DNA from: a virus
Virus record (IMG/VR): IMGVR_UViG_3300012920_000040
Location: 1-61,804 of that record
Length of the DNA stretch: 61,804 bases
Strand: one strand, 5' to 3'
Below, piece after piece: positions 16,354 through 26,709 of the stretch (position 1 is its first letter; the number at the start of each line of letters is the position of its first letter). The notes beneath the pieces were generated by a model that was not told where the DNA came from, searched no databases, and was given only the letters and a program-made list of their open reading frames with translations. Made by a program: the position numbers and the translations under genes.

Positions 16354-17925
16354 TTAGAATCCCATGTCTGTTGCAGAATCACCATACTCATCAGCATATA
16401 TTGGATTGAGTTCAGTAAATGATAATGTAATTTCATATGCTGTAAGTGAACCTGTGGAACCAAACACCATGTATGAACCATCTGGTGTATAGTTTACATT
16501 GAAAGATGTCAAGGCACAGGGTTTAATCTTATTTAGATAGGGATGTTGACCCCCACCTTTATATTGATACTGAATATCAAATACCCTTGGACTCATAAGG
16601 AATAGTTCTTTACCCCTTTGAACAGCACTGTTTCTTTTAAATGCCCTAATCATTTTTCTAATTGATTGTGACTCATCTTTATTTCTAGGTGTCAGTCTAA
16701 AGTTAAAGTTAAATGATCTAAGTGATGGACCACTGAATAGCAACTCAAGGTTAGGATTAATGATAGCACCAGTAGATCTTCCAAGTATATTTGCACCTAC
16801 TGCTTGACCTGCAAAAAATGCCACCAATGCTGCTTTAGTTGTGTCATTTTTATTAATTAAATTATTAATAGCATCTTTTCCCTGTTGGATTGCACCTTTC
16901 AATCTCAGATTACTACCCTCACCTATAAGTTCAATTATTCCACCAGAAAGGTCAGCAAAACCTTTTTGAATATCATTGAGTTGGTCTGAAGTCCAACTCA
17001 CTGAATTTGTTTCAGAAATTGTTGGTTGTATAGGTAAAATTATTGTTTCATATTTTGTACCAGCATGTGTATATGTTTTTGTTGTTAAACTTACACCACT
17101 AGGATTGTAATCATATGCAGTGAATGAAACAAAATCATACTCAAGACCTGCTGGTGGTTCTATTGAGGGATAAGTTATAAGAGCACCCTCATCTCCACCT
17201 GTGTTTGTGCTTCCATCAAATGCATCTATATTTACATCATTAACAGTAATAGGTTCACTGCTTTCATCATCTCTAGTATCATCACCTGTGGTGCCACCAC
17301 CACCATTATTGCCATCTAAACTTCCTGTTCCTGTGGAAGAATCAGTTCCAGTGCCAATATTGTCACCTCCTGATCCATCTCCAGCACCACCATCACCAGA
17401 ATTAGACCCATTGCCACCACCACTTAGTGGAACTGTTGCTAATGAATCATTATCTGGATCAGGTAAAGCAGTTGGATTAACAACTCTTGTATTAGTTACA
17501 GTCCCATCAGAATTTACTCTTTCCTGATTTCCTGTTGGGTTTGATGTAAATGGTACTCTGTTATCATAGAATCCCTGTCTTTCATTTAAACTTGATGTAC
17601 CTGGTTTGTTTAGAACAGCTGCTCTATCATTGTTAAATTTTCTTGCTCCATCACCAAAGAATTGATTCTCAAATTGCGCTTCAGTGTAAGGGAGTTGACC
17701 ATTATCATCTCTTTCATTATTAATTTCTCTTCTATATCTTGCACTATCTACTAGACGCCAATCACTCTTACCATCTTTTGGCACAGATTCTGCTATTAGC
17801 ACACCACCAAGTCCACCCAATGGTCCAAATCCTTTACTATAGATTTGAATTCTACCAGTGGTTGTATTAGTATAGGTGTCTACTGCTACTCCATTCCAAG
17901 TACTTTCTTGAAAAATTTCTGCCAT
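16354..17925 (-). CDS. gp48: Baseplate tail-tube cap protein gp48
   Basis: 523 residues from the ATG at 17925 (MAEIFQESTWNGVAVDTYTN); the longer open frame to 18090 overlaps the neighbouring gene and is unlikely to be used. The C-terminal ~170 residues, with LFSGPSLRSFNFNFRLTPRN and FNVNYTPDGSYMVFGSTGS, show the tail-tube fold of gp48. A long insert at about residues 130-260 is rich in Gly, Asp, Thr and Ser with many GGDG/GSGDGG runs, probably a flexible linker. It tops the baseplate to start tube polymerisation. Confidence 0.85.
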   Translation of the reverse strand: MAEIFQESTWNGVAVDTYTNTTTGRIQIYSKGFGPLGGLGGVLIAESVPKDGKSDWRLVDSARYRREINNERDDNGQLPYTEAQFENQFFGDGARKFNNDRAAVLNKPGTSSLNERQGFYDNRVPFTSNPTGNQERVNSDGTVTNTRVVNPTALPDPDNDSLATVPLSGGGNGSNSGDGGAGDGSGGDNIGTGTDSSTGTGSLDGNNGGGGTTGDDTRDDESSEPITVNDVNIDAFDGSTNTGGDEGALITYPSIEPPAGLEYDFVSFTAYDYNPSGVSLTTKTYTHAGTKYETIILPIQPTISETNSVSWTSDQLNDIQKGFADLSGGIIELIGEGSNLRLKGAIQQGKDAINNLINKNDTTKAALVAFFAGQAVGANILGRSTGAIINPNLELLFSGPSLRSFNFNFRLTPRNKDESQSIRKMIRAFKRNSAVQRGKELFLMSPRVFDIQYQYKGGGQHPYLNKIKPCALTSFNVNYTPDGSYMVFGSTGSLTAYEITLSFTELNPIYADEYGDSATDMGF

Positions 17926-17942
17926 TGTTACAAGACGTCCAT

Positions 17943-18347
17943 TTAGATATTTAGTTTGAATTTTTGATATGGAATTTGTCTCATAGTTTGTATCTCTGAA
18001 GGGTAGATGATGTAAGGATACCCTACAATCTCCTCCCAAGAATAGTTCCTCACTGAACCCCAATGATAATTTAATCCCTTGAATCCCCAAGTCTCAACAC
18101 CCAGACAAGCAATCAGAGGGTGCTCATCATACTCAATTCTTTGTGTCTTTGGTTTATACACATAGGTATAGAACTTGCCAGGAAGAGGCACAGTATCTAT
18201 TGACATATCTCTGTCACCACTCTCAAGCACCCCAATAATCTCTGTCATCATGTCATCTACATCTGTATTAAGCAGGATGTCATTGACTGTTGACTCTGAG
18301 AATCTATCAATGGTGCTATTCTGATATAGTTCTAGTTCTTCATCCAC
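17943..18347 (-). CDS. Hypothetical virion-region protein
   Basis: 134 residues, acidic N-terminus (MDEELELYQNSTIDRFSEST), then KFYTYVYKPKTQRIEYDEHP and a Trp/Tyr-rich end (YHWGSVRNYSWEEIVGYPYI). Sits between gp48 and the basic protein on the minus strand; T4 has no counterpart that I recognise. Likely structural from context. Confidence 0.8.
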   Translation of the reverse strand: MDEELELYQNSTIDRFSESTVNDILLNTDVDDMMTEIIGVLESGDRDMSIDTVPLPGKFYTYVYKPKTQRIEYDEHPLIACLGVETWGFKGLNYHWGSVRNYSWEEIVGYPYIIYPSEIQTMRQIPYQKFKLNI

Positions 18348-18882
18348 TTGGCAATGCTTTCCTTGCTGCCTGTGGATTTATCTGTGGTCTGGCAGGAGTA
18401 CCAGAGATTGCCTTCCTTTCAGGTGCTGGTTTGATTGCAGGTTTCTTTTTAGCACCAGCCATAGCAGTTGATGCTGGTCTAGCAGCAATTTGTTTGTGCT
18501 GTGGTGGTTGCTTAGAGGCAGCAGTTTTCTTAGCAACCATTGAATCCTGAGCAGGTTTCTTCTGAGGTTGTGATGCCTTTGTGATAGCACCACCTTTCTC
18601 ACGCTTAGGTGTTGCTGTCTTGTTTGCCTGTCTATACTTCTGTGGTTTTCTATCCTTCTGCTTACCAGGACCATCAGGTTTAGTTGCTAATGGTTTCTTC
18701 TTAATGTCTTTTTCTCTTTTTTCTTTTGCTTTCTTTCTCTTACCAATCCAATCAATAGATTTATGCTCTTTATCTTGAGGATAATCCTGAGCACTGGAAC
18801 CACCTTTGAATGATCCAGACGCAGAGATTGCTTTCTGAGTTGCCCCAGCAGCATCTTCTTGGAATTGATAGAAAGATTTCAT
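18340..18882 (-). CDS. Lys/Ala/Pro-rich basic protein
   Basis: 180 residues. A 20-residue start MKSFYQFQEDAAGATQKAIS of the kind seen on several cyanophage virion proteins is followed by a long, low-complexity basic region (KKKPLATKPDGPGKQKDRKP and similar), like histone H1 tails, predicted disordered. It could bind DNA or serve as a scaffold, and proteolytic processing is possible; none of this is shown. It overlaps the next minus-strand gene by 8 bases. Confidence 0.75.
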   Translation of the reverse strand: MKSFYQFQEDAAGATQKAISASGSFKGGSSAQDYPQDKEHKSIDWIGKRKKAKEKREKDIKKKPLATKPDGPGKQKDRKPQKYRQANKTATPKREKGGAITKASQPQKKPAQDSMVAKKTAASKQPPQHKQIAARPASTAMAGAKKKPAIKPAPERKAISGTPARPQINPQAARKALPSG

Positions 18883-20112: not shown

Positions 20113-20832
20113 ATGCCTTTACCTAAAATTGCTACACCAACATATGACTTGGAGTTGCCTTCTACAAAACAAAAAATTAAGTTTAGACCTTTCTTAGTTA
20201 AGGAAGAGAAGTTACTTGTTCTTGCATTGGAAAGTGAAGATACAAAACAAATTACTAATGCTATCAAAACAGTCATCAAATCTTGCATCTCCACAAGAGG
20301 TGTGAAGGTTGAGGATCTTCCTACTTTTGATATTGAATTTTTATTCCTGAACATCAGAGGTAAGTCTGTTGGTGAGGAGGTTGAACTTAGTATTATTGCA
20401 CCTGATGATGGTGCTACTCCTATTCCAGTTAGTATTAATCTTGATGACATCAAGGTTATTGAGAATGAAAACCACAACAAACAAATCAAACTTGATGATG
20501 AACTTATGATGGACATGAAGTATCCATCACTGGATCAATTCATTAGGAATAACTTTGATCAAGTTGATACAACTGATGTTGAAAAATCATTTGAACTTAT
20601 TGCCACTTGTATTGACAAAATTTATAATGCAGAAGAGGTCTGGTCAACTGCTGACTGCACAAAGAAAGAGGTTGTAGAGTTTCTTAATCAGATGAGTTCT
20701 ACTCAGTTTAAGGATGTTGAGAAATTTTTTGACACCATGCCTAAACTATCACACACATTGGATGTTACCAATCCAGTCACTAAGGTCACTAGCACTGTCA
20801 CATTAGAAGGGTTGTCAAGTTTTTTCGGATAG
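20113..20832 (+). CDS. gp26: Baseplate hub subunit gp26
   Basis: 239 residues beginning MPLPKIATPTYDLELPSTKQ, with KFRPFLVKEEKLLVLALES and a long helical C-terminal half, matching gp26 (T4 208 residues). It is a hub assembly protein. The gene ends with TTTTTTC followed two codons later by TAG. This is an X XXY YYZ slippery heptamer in the correct frame to shift ribosomes by -1 into the small gp51-like ORF, as tail-assembly chaperones do in other long-tailed phages. Confidence 0.82.
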   Translation: MPLPKIATPTYDLELPSTKQKIKFRPFLVKEEKLLVLALESEDTKQITNAIKTVIKSCISTRGVKVEDLPTFDIEFLFLNIRGKSVGEEVELSIIAPDDGATPIPVSINLDDIKVIENENHNKQIKLDDELMMDMKYPSLDQFIRNNFDQVDTTDVEKSFELIATCIDKIYNAEEVWSTADCTKKEVVEFLNQMSSTQFKDVEKFFDTMPKLSHTLDVTNPVTKVTSTVTLEGLSSFFG

Positions 20833-20851
20833 GTCTTTCCCATATGGACCT
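20820..20851 (+). other. Candidate -1 programmed ribosomal frameshift site
   Basis: T TTT TTC at 20820-20826 in the gp26 frame, stop TAG at 20830-20832. A short stem AGGTC/GACCT (20831-20835 with 20847-20851) starts 4 bases after the heptamer. The -1 frame is open from the slip through the ATG at 20844 to 21011. Confidence 0.55.
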
Positions 20852-21011
20852 TGAAAGTTATTTTAGATTAAATTTTGCCTTGATGCAGTACCATAAATAT
20901 TCATTAACTGAGATTGAAAACATGATGCCATGGGAGCGTGATGTTTATGTTGGACTTCTACAGCAACACCTAGAGGAAGAAGAACAAAAAGCAAAGGCAC
21001 GTAATGGATAG
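20844..21011 (+). CDS. gp51: gp51-position small hub-assembly ORF
   Basis: 55 residues, MDLESYFRLNFALMQYHKYS then MMPWERDVYVGLLQQHLEEE. It sits between gp26 and the hub proteins, the position of gene 51 in T4 (26-51-27), but is far shorter than T4 gp51 (about 250). Its aromatic/Leu start and PWERxVY end recall the C-terminal extension of frameshifted tail chaperones. It may be made from its own ATG, by -1 frameshift as a gp26 fusion, or both. The next gene starts inside its last codons. Confidence 0.7.
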   Translation: MDLESYFRLNFALMQYHKYSLTEIENMMPWERDVYVGLLQQHLEEEEQKAKARNG

Positions 21012-23661
21012 TAAGGTAGTAAAACTACTTAAAATATATGAGAACGAGACTGGGAAGGATTTACTTTCCAAACTTAATGCAGATCGTCTCAAAAAATTAG
21101 GGTTCTACTACGAAAATTTATCTGAGGATGAGCAGCAGGATATAGATCTAAAGATCATAACTGGGGAAGACAATGACTTTATTGATGTATGCCTGGGACT
21201 TGCAGGATACTTTGATGAAGTAGAATATGATCAAGGACTAAGGGATTTAACAGAGGATGTCATAGAGGAGGAGGGTGGTGGTTCAACTGCTCTCGCAGTA
21301 ATTCCTAGGACAGAAGAACCAGCAAGTGATGAAGACCTAGTAAGTGAGGATATTGATCCCAGAATATTAAGATTACTTGGTCTTGAGGATGTATTTGATA
21401 TTGATTATGATACTTATAAGACTCTTCTAAAAGAGAAGATGGCTGCTGGCAGGATGACTGACAGTCAGATGCCTACTGAGGAAGTAGAACTTCTTACAGA
21501 TGAATTCAAGAGAGTAAAGTCAAAGACAGGTAGGTTCTCAGTCAAGAAGAAAACTGTCAGTGTAGATAGTTTCTTTGATAGAGGTGGGGCAGCAGAGACA
21601 GACAGCACTTCTGATAAACCTGTTGTAACTCCTGCTGGTCTCTTGCCATCAGCACAAAAAATTAGTAAGACTGTTGAGGATGAGCAGGAGGAAGCACAGG
21701 TTGAGGACAAAGATAACTTCAACCAGAAAGTATTGGCGCCTTCTCTTCAGAAAATTGATGACAATATTCAGAGCATACTTGACACACTCAAGAAACAGTA
21801 TGATCTTGAAAAGAAAGAGGCAAAAAGAGATGAGAGAATCGCTGATAAAGAGAGAGCAGATAAGAGAGAAGCAAAACTTGAGAGTGGTTCAAAATCAAAA
21901 GGTATAAATTTTTCTAGTCTTAAAAATGTAGCCAAACCAGTCACTGATTTGTTTGGCATGATGCAGAAGTTCCTCATCAACACATTGCTTGGTGGGATCT
22001 TAATGAGAGTGATGGATATCATCAATGATCCTCACAAATATCTTAACCCAATCAAACAATTCTTTATCAATATCATTGAGTGGGTAGAAGATACAGTACA
22101 ATTTATAGTTGATATACCATATAACATATACAATAGTATTGCTACCAATCTAAATGCTGGTATAGATGCAATTGAATCAGCAATCAATAATGCTCTTGCA
22201 TTTTTTAAACAAGGTCCATTAGACCCTGGTCCTAGATTACCAAAGTTAGATCCTCCTGTGATAGACATTCCAATCCCAGATTTCTTACAACTTCAACCCA
22301 CCAATGCACAGACACAAGCACAGTCGCAGAAGGAAGGTGGTGAAGTAGAATCTAATCCTGCTACAATGGTGATGAATAATATTCTTGTTGGTTCACCTGC
22401 AATGTCATCAGACACACCTCAAGGAAATACAACTCTTCAGGTGTCACCAACTTTAACAACAGGTGGTGTAAATGTTGCACCATCTGGACCTACCCCTATT
22501 GATGTCAGCATGGGAGGAAGGATTGAGAATAGATCAATCAATAAGGTTAAGGGTATGGGTGTGGATACACAACTTGTTGCTGCACAACCTGGTGAAATTA
22601 TGATGAGTGTCCCAGCAGTTCAAGCAATTGGTGCTGAGAATTTACTTGCTGCTAATGCTGCTGCTGGTGGAACAAACAAACCCAAGTTTGGTAAGTTCAT
22701 GGGTATGCAGGGTGGTGGTATGATTGGTAGACAGGGTTCTGCACCCATCAGAGACTTTGGTATGGGTGGTGGTGCTGGTAGGAAGGGATATATTCTTGTG
22801 CCTGGTCATGCTGCTGGTGGTGGAGCACCTGGTGAGATGGAGATGGTTGTTGATTTGACTCAAAATGTTGTTGATAATTTGAAGAATAGATTTGGTAATG
22901 ATATACCCATCAAAATTATGAATATGCACGCTGAAACTCCTAATACTTATGCTGCATTTAGCAAACAACAGGACAAACTAAAGGAACTTGAGAAGCAGGG
23001 TTATGAGGTTATTGAGATTCATATGGATGCTTCCCTTGAATCAGGACAGGGGACAGGAAGAGGTTTGATTGCTCCTATGCCAGGAACTGATGCTATTAAT
23101 CCTGTTGAGGCAGACTTTGCAAGAACTGCTGGTGCATTTACAAGGGAACATAGAGGTGGTCTTGCTGCTACCAATAGAGGTGTAAGCATTATTGAACTAG
23201 GTAATATGTCTCCTGAATTACAGAAAAGATATGCTCCTAATCAAGTGCAAGGCACTCCTGGTATTGCTAAGGATCAACTTGATATTATTACCAAACCCCT
23301 TGAGGATTCACTGATTAGGGGAATGAAACTTAAAACTTCTGCTAATGTTGTTGCTTCAGACTTTACTATGGGAGCAGGTGCTATAGATGCTTTTGATTCT
23401 GCTGGAACATCACCAGCACCAAGAGTTGTTCCTACAATTACTAGCACTCCTGCTGCACAAGTTACTGCCACTCAGGTTTATTCACAGACACCTAATAGAG
23501 AGACTAATGTTCAAATAGTTCCTGTACCAAGTGGAAATGAAAAGAGACCAGCATCAAGTTCTGCTGAGGCATCACAAAAACTTGTTCCTCCATTAAATGC
23601 AGAGGATGCAAACAACTTTGACATGATTGTTATTAAATCTATCTATAACATAGTGAGTTAA
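21004..23661 (+). CDS. Large hub-region protein with amidase-3-like domain
   Basis: 885 residues. Order: acidic N-terminus (1-190), Lys/Glu coiled coil (~235-300), hydrophobic segment with FLINTLLGGILMRVMDIIND (~320-400), a Pro/Thr linker, then a zinc amidase-like domain: GYILVPGHAAGG (~594), EMEMVVDL, VIEIHMDASLESG (~670) and GVSIIELGNMS (~728), giving His, Glu, His and the catalytic Glu of N-acetylmuramoyl-L-alanine amidases. It probably cuts host peptidoglycan at DNA entry. No clear T4 homologue; by position between 51 and 27 it and the next gene may replace gp28/gp29. It overlaps the gp51-like ORF by 8 bases. Confidence 0.85.
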   Translation: MDSKVVKLLKIYENETGKDLLSKLNADRLKKLGFYYENLSEDEQQDIDLKIITGEDNDFIDVCLGLAGYFDEVEYDQGLRDLTEDVIEEEGGGSTALAVIPRTEEPASDEDLVSEDIDPRILRLLGLEDVFDIDYDTYKTLLKEKMAAGRMTDSQMPTEEVELLTDEFKRVKSKTGRFSVKKKTVSVDSFFDRGGAAETDSTSDKPVVTPAGLLPSAQKISKTVEDEQEEAQVEDKDNFNQKVLAPSLQKIDDNIQSILDTLKKQYDLEKKEAKRDERIADKERADKREAKLESGSKSKGINFSSLKNVAKPVTDLFGMMQKFLINTLLGGILMRVMDIINDPHKYLNPIKQFFINIIEWVEDTVQFIVDIPYNIYNSIATNLNAGIDAIESAINNALAFFKQGPLDPGPRLPKLDPPVIDIPIPDFLQLQPTNAQTQAQSQKEGGEVESNPATMVMNNILVGSPAMSSDTPQGNTTLQVSPTLTTGGVNVAPSGPTPIDVSMGGRIENRSINKVKGMGVDTQLVAAQPGEIMMSVPAVQAIGAENLLAANAAAGGTNKPKFGKFMGMQGGGMIGRQGSAPIRDFGMGGGAGRKGYILVPGHAAGGGAPGEMEMVVDLTQNVVDNLKNRFGNDIPIKIMNMHAETPNTYAAFSKQQDKLKELEKQGYEVIEIHMDASLESGQGTGRGLIAPMPGTDAINPVEADFARTAGAFTREHRGGLAATNRGVSIIELGNMSPELQKRYAPNQVQGTPGIAKDQLDIITKPLEDSLIRGMKLKTSANVVASDFTMGAGAIDAFDSAGTSPAPRVVPTITSTPAAQVTATQVYSQTPNRETNVQIVPVPSGNEKRPASSSAEASQKLVPPLNAEDANNFDMIVIKSIYNIVS

Positions 23662-23664
23662 GAC

Positions 23665-26600
23665 ATGGCACTTCCTATGTTAGCTGGTAGTTTAGTAAAG
23701 GGTTTGCTTGGTGGTGCTGGCAAGAAAGTTGGTGGCGCTTTAGTTAAAACTAAGGATAAAAAAATTAAAAAGGTTGTTAAAGAGCAGGTCAAAACTGAGA
23801 ACAAACCCAGTTTTACTAGTGTATCTGAGTCTGTTTACAAGACAGTTGCTCAACAGAAAAAAATAACTGCAGGAACATTTAAACCTGAGACTGATGAGGC
23901 AAAAGTAGACAGTAAAGTATCTAATGAATCTCTTAAAACTCAATTAGATAATCTTATTGAGAATACATCAAAACTAGACAATGTATTCAAGCAGCAACTG
24001 AAAGAGGATACTCAGAATGCTAAGAAGAAAGATGCTGCACTGGCAAAACAAAGAGCAGAAAGAAGAGAGAGAAAACTAGAGACCACGCCAAAGAAAAAAC
24101 TGATTGGTGGTGTGGGACTAGGTTCAGGACCAATGAACCTCATGGATATGATTGGCAAGTTCTTACTCAACACATTGTTGGGTGGACTTGCTCTGCTGAC
24201 TTTAAATAACCTACCTAAGATTACAAATTTCTTAGATAAGTATGGTCAAAATCTATATCTTATCTTTAATGGTATAAGGTTAGGATTATATGGACTGAAG
24301 TCTTTCTTTGGTGGTGTCCTTAAACTATCTGGAAAAATATTTAAGTCAGGTCTTAAACTGGTTGGAAAACTTATAAGAAGTTCAGCAAGATTACTTGGTA
24401 GAGGAATCAAGAGTGGATTCCTGAAACTGGGTGATGCTATTGTTGATTTTGCAAGAGGAACTGTAAATCTTATTAGAAGATTAGCAGGTAAACCTCCCCT
24501 TCCACCAAGAAGAGGAAAACCTGGTGGTAGAAATGCTGCAAAACCTGGAACAAGATTAAAACCAAAGCAAAGAACTGCCACTGCATCCAAAGCAGCAAGG
24601 AAAAGATATGCTCAGAGATATGGTCCTGAGGCAGCAAAGAGAAGATTTCAAGGTAATGTTCAGAGACCTACTGGACAAACTACAAGGTTACCTAAACCTA
24701 GGAATAGATTTTTAACAAAGTTATTTGGTCCTAAAACAGCAGGTGAAATTAAGAAAGCATCACCTGTACTTAAGAAAGTTTCAAAGGCAGCAAAAGGTGT
24801 AAGGATTCCTATTATTGGACCCATACTTGTTGCCATCAGCTCAATGCTGGCTGATGATCCAGTTAAAAAAACCATGTTCAAAGCAGTTGGTACTGGTTTG
24901 GGTGAGGCACTTGGCACACTCATTCCAATTCCTGTTATTGGAACAATTGTTGGTGGATTAATAGGTGAGTATGGTGGTGATTTACTTTACACTTTCTTAG
25001 AGGGTGGTGGTATATCTGGTGTCCAGAATAAAATGGCACAGGATTGGAACAATACTCTAAAGACTGGTGCAAAGTTTAAAGATTATATTGGTCAATCTTT
25101 TAATAGATATAGTGAATCACTACCCAAAGTAGAGATTCCTGAGTTACCTGGTTGGTTGAAACGTGCTGACTTCTTGGGTTGGCTTCAGAAGATTCCCTTC
25201 TGGGGTCAAGAGATACCTGATCCAAAATTCTTCCTTGACCCAAGAAATATACCTAAGAATATTGGTCTGATGAAGGATGCATTGTTCCCTCCTAAGGGAA
25301 TGGTTCCAGAGACAGGTAAGGTAGAAGATCTTGACCTTGATTTAAGTGATGCCCCACCACCACCTGTACTTCCTCCTCCACCTGGTGCTGCTTCTTCACC
25401 TGCTGCAGTCACTACTGCTGGTAGAGTAACTGGTGGCAATGCAGATTTCTGGACACTGGTAGCAGTTGCATCATTGGAAGATAGTGATGCCCAAGGTAGA
25501 GCAGATGTAGCACAATCAATCTACAACAGAGCAGCATCAGGTGCTTATGGTGGTGGTCAAAAAAATATAAGGAAACTTATCATTGCTGATAAACAATATC
25601 AACCCACCTGGGACTATCCAAGGAAGAATCCTGCTGGTGAGAAAGCAAATCCTGAGTGGCTTTCTATTGTAGATGCTCAGACTGCTGCTGCAGCAGCAGG
25701 AAAGTCTGTTGCATTTATGGAGCAAGCAGCAAAAGATATTATGAATCCAACCCTTCAAAAGAGGGCAAAGGAATTTGTAGGAGGAAGAACTGACTTCACA
25801 AACTACTCTAAAACTAACAGAAGAGGTCAGATTTATAGACAAACAGGTGGCAGAAACAATTACTTTGGGTGGGATTGGAACTATTCAGGTAATGTTGTTG
25901 GTAGGATTCCAACATTTGATGCTGCTCAACCATCTCAACAATCCACACAAGCAAGAGCAGCTGAAATTGTAAGCAGAGTTCCTGCTGGACAAAGATCATT
26001 GGTTACCAAAGTTCCATTTGCAGACTTCTCACGTACAGCAGCAGAGGGTGGAAGAGGAAGAGTTGGTTTGACTGATGTTTATGATCCTGCAGGCACAATT
26101 AATAGCAGAGGAAGACCACATTATGGAGTTGACATTGGAACCAATTATCAAAAAGGTTTTGGATTCAGTTTCAAACTATCAGGAACAGTGGGTCAGCGTG
26201 AGAATACATCAGTTGGTGGATATGGTGTCACTATTAAGTGTGGAAATATTGAATTCCGTTGTATTCATTTAGCAGGACCATCATTTGTATCACCAGGTGC
26301 AGCATATAATGGTGAAGTTGTTGGTGAGATTGGAAATACAGGTACTAGTTCAAGAGGTGAACATCTTCACTTAGAGGTGTATGTAAATGGTGATATGACA
26401 GATCCACGTCCTTACCTTAAGTATCTTGAGATAGGTAAAATTGGAGCATCAGATGGCACTGCAACCAGGGCAACAATTGCTCCTTCAAGAGCAAGCACAA
26501 CCACTGCTGCTGCCTCTAGAGTATCAAGAACTGCATCATATGATTCAGGTGGCGCAATTTCAATCCCTATGCCTGTTGCCTCTGGAGGAAGACAAGGACA

Positions 26601-26709
26601 AGCTATTGTAAAAGAAAAGGTTATTGACTCTGCAGAATCAAGTTTAATTGATGTAGTAAATAGTTACCATACTGCTCAGTTAATGGCTAATTTATATAAG
26701 CAAGGATAA
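23665..26709 (+). CDS. Large hub-region protein with SleB-like and M23 peptidase domains
   Basis: 1014 residues. N-terminal coiled coil (~90-145), FLLNTLLGGLALLTLNNLPK (~165), a basic Arg/Lys region, a glycine-rich hydrophobic stretch (~375-445), a Pro-rich linker, then a SleB/hydrolase-2-like domain (~590-735: SLEDSDAQGRADVAQSIYNR). An M23 LytM-type metallopeptidase follows (~795-925) with zinc ligands His819 and Asp823 in HYGVDIG and His900/His902 in GEHLHLEV. It shares the FLxNTLLGG segment and coiled coil with the preceding protein, so the two are partial paralogues. Likely both tape-measure-like and lytic; that dual role is inference. Confidence 0.85.
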   Translation: MALPMLAGSLVKGLLGGAGKKVGGALVKTKDKKIKKVVKEQVKTENKPSFTSVSESVYKTVAQQKKITAGTFKPETDEAKVDSKVSNESLKTQLDNLIENTSKLDNVFKQQLKEDTQNAKKKDAALAKQRAERRERKLETTPKKKLIGGVGLGSGPMNLMDMIGKFLLNTLLGGLALLTLNNLPKITNFLDKYGQNLYLIFNGIRLGLYGLKSFFGGVLKLSGKIFKSGLKLVGKLIRSSARLLGRGIKSGFLKLGDAIVDFARGTVNLIRRLAGKPPLPPRRGKPGGRNAAKPGTRLKPKQRTATASKAARKRYAQRYGPEAAKRRFQGNVQRPTGQTTRLPKPRNRFLTKLFGPKTAGEIKKASPVLKKVSKAAKGVRIPIIGPILVAISSMLADDPVKKTMFKAVGTGLGEALGTLIPIPVIGTIVGGLIGEYGGDLLYTFLEGGGISGVQNKMAQDWNNTLKTGAKFKDYIGQSFNRYSESLPKVEIPELPGWLKRADFLGWLQKIPFWGQEIPDPKFFLDPRNIPKNIGLMKDALFPPKGMVPETGKVEDLDLDLSDAPPPPVLPPPPGAASSPAAVTTAGRVTGGNADFWTLVAVASLEDSDAQGRADVAQSIYNRAASGAYGGGQKNIRKLIIADKQYQPTWDYPRKNPAGEKANPEWLSIVDAQTAAAAAGKSVAFMEQAAKDIMNPTLQKRAKEFVGGRTDFTNYSKTNRRGQIYRQTGGRNNYFGWDWNYSGNVVGRIPTFDAAQPSQQSTQARAAEIVSRVPAGQRSLVTKVPFADFSRTAAEGGRGRVGLTDVYDPAGTINSRGRPHYGVDIGTNYQKGFGFSFKLSGTVGQRENTSVGGYGVTIKCGNIEFRCIHLAGPSFVSPGAAYNGEVVGEIGNTGTSSRGEHLHLEVYVNGDMTDPRPYLKYLEIGKIGASDGTATRATIAPSRASTTTAAASRVSRTASYDSGGAISIPMPVASGGRQGQAIVKEKVIDSAESSLIDVVNSYHTAQLMANLYKQG

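Follow-up and report, generated by a model that had tools for sequence, protein, structure and literature searches.

Does the gp26 gene of this virus end at its own stop codon, or do some ribosomes leave its frame at a run of T residues and read on into the short ORF annotated as gp51? The window, by which we mean the whole 61,804-nucleotide stretch analyzed here (IMG/VR record IMGVR_UViG_3300012920_000040), is cyanomyovirus-like, and its nearest annotated relatives are the Synechococcus phages S-B43, S-H68, and RB11-B (~75% DNA identity). The 0-frame product of gp26 (20113..20832, plus strand) is a 239-aa protein corresponding to the short tail assembly chaperone (TAC-N), with matches to PF12322 (T4_baseplate, E 5e-71) and, over residues 1–238, to phrog_150 (E 1.5e-76). 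The next gene (21004..23661, plus strand, 885 aa), whose start overlaps the end of the extension described below, has weak baseplate matches (phrog_30576, baseplate protein, E 4e-10), and it is followed by an ORF with tape-measure-like and peptidase matches (23665–26709, 1014 aa). In the Rhizobium phage RHph_I1_18, a tape-measure match occurs shortly downstream, one small ORF past the corresponding extension. Elsewhere in the window, on the minus strand, a 180-residue Lys/Ala/Pro-rich ORF (18340–18882) has a tail-tube-like gene on one side and the tail tube cap gene on the other, and comparison with PHROG gave no match for it. The tail tube cap (gp48-like) ORF (16354–18090, minus strand, 578 aa) has its family match only at 311–571, and its TTG start or its N-terminal half appears unusual.

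The gp26 gene ends TCA AGT TTT TTC GGA TAG. A preliminary description of this DNA had placed a T TTT TTC heptamer here in the X XXY YYZ register of a -1 ribosomal frameshift site, and we find this predicted site at 20820..20826 on the plus strand. The 0-frame stop, TAG (20830..20832, plus strand), lies one codon past the heptamer, a spacing that is identical in 110 of 116 relatives. As that description also held, no stop interrupts the -1 frame between the slip and the stop at 21009–21011, and the 55-residue ORF (20844–21011) and its ATG lie in that frame, which we find open already upstream of the slip. The -1-frame extension, hereafter the T domain, comprises 63 aa from the slip (20820..21011, plus strand) and includes the ORF annotated as gp51. 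Added to the 236 residues that precede it, it gives a predicted fusion of 299 residues, in agreement with the earlier estimate of about 300. The 55-aa ORF matches phrog_634 (E 2e-27) and also the C-terminus of phrog_150 (positions 242–281); therefore, some phrog_150 members hold both parts in one protein. Among the peptides of the window, VTSTVTLEGLSSFFR and IGLSHMDLESYFR are predicted for the fusion, of which IGLSHMDLESYFR is not derivable from a start at 20844, and VTSTVTLEGLSSFFG belongs to the 0-frame end of gp26. Because TTTTTTC occurs 17 times in the whole window, where 16.2 occurrences are expected, the heptamer carries no weight as evidence on its own; what counts is that it is invariant across relatives. 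The window alone would not carry a claim of frameshifting, and it is the comparison with relatives that makes the case.

For this comparison, loci were pooled from 80 close relatives, 80 relatives of P-HM2 gp26, smaller sets, and annotated isolates; queries with KVP40, Rhizobium, and T4 gp51 sequences against viral contigs contributed few loci. A T TTT TTZ heptamer stands at the homologous place in 179 of the ~194 loci with a gp26 stop codon, and the ~15 loci that lack it are all T4-type or Ackermannviridae-type; it is absent from the T4-type loci and from most of the Ackermannviridae-type ones. From the pool we drew a dereplicated set of 116 loci, chosen for having the heptamer and counted without regard to kinship; T TTT TT[C/A/T] stands at the homologous place in 116/116 of them. 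The set spans the Kyanoviridae, KVP40, Aeh1/P19, phages of Stenotrophomonas, Acidovorax, Rhizobium, and Agrobacterium, and marine contigs. Isolates with the slip site include Aeromonas phages P19 and Aeh1, Stenotrophomonas phages DLP6 and Moby, Acidovorax phage ACP17, KVP40, Agrobacterium phage OLIVR5, and Vibrio phage Bakedbeans, as well as RHph_I1_18, in which the 0-frame stop lies several codons further downstream. Conservation of the heptamer and of the -1 register, which the preliminary description had set as a test, thus extends far beyond close relatives (116/116).

The codons that make up the heptamer are informative about what is being conserved. The codon before TTT ends in T in all 116 loci (AGT in 58, GAT in 30, TCT in 15, AAT in 12, and GCT in 1), while the amino acid it encodes varies among Ser, Asp, Asn, and Ala. 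The second slip codon is TTT throughout, and the last is TTC in 96 loci, TTA in 19, and TTT in 1. The run of six T residues stays intact despite switches between the AGT and TCT codons of Ser and despite a change from Phe to Leu. Only two of the 232 columns in the gp26 codon alignment have an invariant third base, and these are the first two codons of the heptamer; synonymous sites outside the slip site are highly variable among gp26 relatives. Elsewhere in gp26, Phe-Phe is written TTT TTC in only 6/116 instances. The heptamer and its frame relation are kept beyond protein constraint.

Downstream of the slip, the sequence is conserved as protein in the -1 frame. The peptide FF-R-I-(A/G)-(L/M)-x-H-x-x-(L/I)-x-x-(Y/F)-(Y/F) is conserved straight from the slip, with the -1 frame unbroken. 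Between the gp26 stop and the usual ATG, the entropies at -1-frame codon positions 1, 2, and 3 are 1.09, 0.70, and 1.58 bits, which is a coding pattern in a segment where a separately started gp51 would be untranslated. An ATG occurs between the slip and the T-domain core in 77/116 relatives, and in the cyanophages, where it has a poor to moderate Shine–Dalgarno (SD) sequence, it lies 24 nt past the slip start and may also give a separate short product. In 33/116 loci there is no ATG, GTG, or TTG ahead of the T-domain core, and in 5 more there is only a GTG or TTG, without a clear SD. Since start codons are absent in some loci, annotators have truncated gp51 (P-HM2, C48C1) or omitted it (ACG-2014d, P19, Aeh1). 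In the Aeh1 locus (L193, after 3217), the unannotated -1-frame gp51 domain has no start codon and stands behind T TTT TTC GAC TGA.

Sequences that could stimulate slippage differ among the loci. The 5-bp stem that the preliminary description had noted 4 bases past the heptamer is present in the window at that position, as a predicted hairpin pairing 20831–20836 with 20846–20851 on the plus strand (AGGTCT/GGACCT; five Watson–Crick pairs and one G–U). The 64-nt stretch that contains it folds no better than shuffled sequences (z = 0.5), so that for this window alone the stem lacks significance. Among relatives, stems of 10–11 bp begin a few nucleotides past the heptamer in P-SSM2, S-CAM9, and MA01, and the T TTT TTA clade carries an 8-bp hairpin in which 90.4% of pairs are kept and 8 double-sided changes occur, a number reached by 0/500 shuffles. 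Overall, 35% of loci have a strong stem, compared with 4–6% in controls, and the scan found some clades without a simple stem. A weak candidate upstream is the SD-like GAAGGG at 20806..20811 (plus strand), 8 nt before the heptamer. A GA[AG]GG motif recurs ~8 nt upstream in relatives, where it coincides with conserved Glu-Gly codons; its purine-rich codon choice is only mildly above the gene average, and we do not claim it as a stimulator.

The T4 proteins offer another view of the same architecture. Both the short product and the extension match the T4 gp26/gp51 family (PF12322, phrog_150, phrog_634). In T4 gp51, residues 1–201 have a match to PF12322, which gp26 also matches, and the C-terminus has one to phrog_634; in a pairwise alignment, the -1-frame peptide of the window aligns with T4 gp51 residues 200–246 from the slip residue onward (E 3e-5). 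Judged by these matches, T4 gp51 is built like the fusion and T4 gp26 like the short form. A confident structural model of a T4-type gp51 (pLDDT 89.7) has a helix across the junction, followed by three further helices. Because T4 gp51 is colinear with the fusion, T4 holds in two genes, divergent and without the heptamer, what its relatives would make from one gene by predicted frameshifting. Genes 26 and 51 are divergent in T4, 44RR, and ZZ1 alike. In the locus of Acinetobacter phage ZZ1 (L195, 2501–3249), the match of gp51 to T4 gp51 falls into two pieces, and its annotation mentions a CDS with this name that overlaps it; either a sequencing error or a real frameshift is possible there.

Several other explanations of the locus deserve consideration. 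The 55-residue ORF could be a separate gene whose translation begins at the ATG at 20844, through translational coupling or reinitiation past the gp26 stop, with the heptamer incidental. In its favor, the ATG (20844..20846, plus strand) is in the -1 frame with AGGT 9 nt upstream, two-thirds of the relatives have an ATG in this place, and GenBank records annotate gp51 as its own gene. Yet the start codon is conserved neither in place nor in presence, whereas the heptamer is conserved, third bases of codons included; the stretch ahead of the ATG is kept as -1-frame protein, and T4 gp51 includes that stretch, fused. We regard a separate gene as very unlikely.

Even less likely is a fusion that arises from slippage of RNA polymerase, rather than of the ribosome, on the six-T run. 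The run is conserved, and that of C48C1 is longer (GAT TTT TTT TAA), but runs of six are short for polymerase slippage, and a Z base of C or A in 115/116 relatives means that the T-run rarely lengthens; the reading register and the downstream hairpins fit tandem tRNA slippage instead. That the T-rich end of an AT-rich gene merely resembles a slip site is the least probable of all. Although the number of heptamers in the window is what chance predicts, chance is contradicted by an invariance that holds across several phage families and among gp26 sequences whose synonymous sites mostly differ. We conclude that gp26 and the ‘gp51’ ORF are almost certainly one tail assembly chaperone gene, and that, to judge from the comparison, the long product is very probably made by -1 ribosomal frameshifting. 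The conserved slip site, its register, the open -1 frame, the coding signature between slip and ATG, the hairpins of relatives, and the colinear T4 protein all support this reading.

The slippage itself, its efficiency, and the mechanism of the chaperone we infer as follows. Most ribosomes would stop at 20830–20832 and release the short chaperone of 239 residues. A fraction would instead slip back by one base at T TTT TTC, with the two Phe tRNAs re-pairing, and these would pass the stop to yield the 299-residue long chaperone with its C-terminal helical T domain. The locus would thereby produce short and long isoforms with a common N-terminus, as in the lambda G/GT class. On the model of lambda gpG/gpGT, the role of the short form would be to coat the tape measure or hub proteins and that of the long form to recruit tail tube subunits, and both forms would leave before the virion is completed. 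Fold searches of the PDB gave no significant match: the HK97 chaperone 2OB9 was among the matches, weakly (E 1.3, probability 0.69), and was not among the matches listed for the gp51 model. A sequence search of the PDB with the gp26 profile returned four weak matches, none of them to a phage tail protein.

How the T4 arrangement came about is less clear from phylogeny. In a tree built on the shared domain, the T4-type proteins fall into two neighboring groups (91/83), one of gp26 and one of gp51, both apart from the frameshift genes. This topology fits a duplication in the T4 lineage, for which the long branches make it weak evidence. In a series of Ackermannviridae-type loci (L197 3290–3306, L199–L216, L095, L092, L198), the -1 relation and the T-domain ORF are kept, with NNT TTC NNN TAA in place of the heptamer; several of them (KN2-1, Kevin, Salmonella-type) have no nearby ATG, and their sister, Vibrio phage Bakedbeans, has T TTT TTC. 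Non-canonical slippage is possible in these loci. We tentatively propose, as a scenario that falls somewhat short of an even chance, that a frameshifted chaperone gene is ancestral to the T4 superfamily, that the T4 lineage replaced it through gene duplication and in-frame fusion of the T domain, yielding genes 26 and 51, and that in the Ackermannviridae the canonical heptamer gave way to a non-canonical slip (NNT TTC NNN TAA).

The lambda slip sequence is G GGA AAG; that of the present gene, which sits in a T4-type hub gene cluster, is T TTT TTC/A. Compared with lambda gpG/gpGT and its relatives in long-tailed phages (PMC5009743), the present gene also belongs to another protein family and has a larger short product. 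With T4 gp26/gp51 it shares the family: the short product corresponds to gp26, and the fusion is colinear with gp51. T4 gp26 and gp51 are hub assembly chaperones, and gp51 is required and absent from the particle (PMC3004832). In the chaperone locus of the Vandenendeviridae and Andersonviridae, a conserved GTTTTT site was inferred by comparative genomics (PMC12846349); the likeness is a poly-T -1 site at the end of TAC-N, in other phages.

The preliminary description had added that gp26/gp51 are not described as a frameshift pair, which is only partly right. According to papers that cite it (PMC10885494, PMC12846349), Vladimirov et al. (2022, Virology 566:9–15) identified the tail assembly chaperones of T4-like phages, T4 gp26/gp51. 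One of these reports, citing Vladimirov, Gautam, and Davidson (2022), that some T4-like phages, in place of frameshifting, carry two chaperone genes, a short one and a fused long one (PMC10885494, 2024), and the other, from 2025, credits the same work with slip signals of the poly-T type in the chaperone genes of T4-like phages (PMC12846349). Since citing papers credit the 2022 work in these terms, the general result has probably been published already. In the open literature we found no statement of a gp26/gp51 frameshift in cyanophages, nor any account of how widely the site is conserved, of start codons being lost, of hairpins that covary, or of the Ackermannviridae variant.

These observations bear on two statements in the earlier literature. 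A 2016 review described G–T frameshifting as conserved widely among long-tailed phages ‘except T4’ (PMC5009743), and a 2010 survey of cyanophages put gp51 at only ~20% of the length that it has in T4 and noted its absence from Aeh1 (PMC3037559). Both statements follow if what makes up the N-terminal 200 residues of gp51 is the gp26 ORF, read through a slip. In that case, gp51 would be misannotated in many public genomes, where it is given the wrong start, cut short, or left out. With its relatives, T4 also offers a natural case in which to compare frameshifting with gene duplication as means of setting the chaperone ratio, and if the ancestral scenario is true, three solutions to the problem of making a short and a long chaperone would coexist within one protein family.
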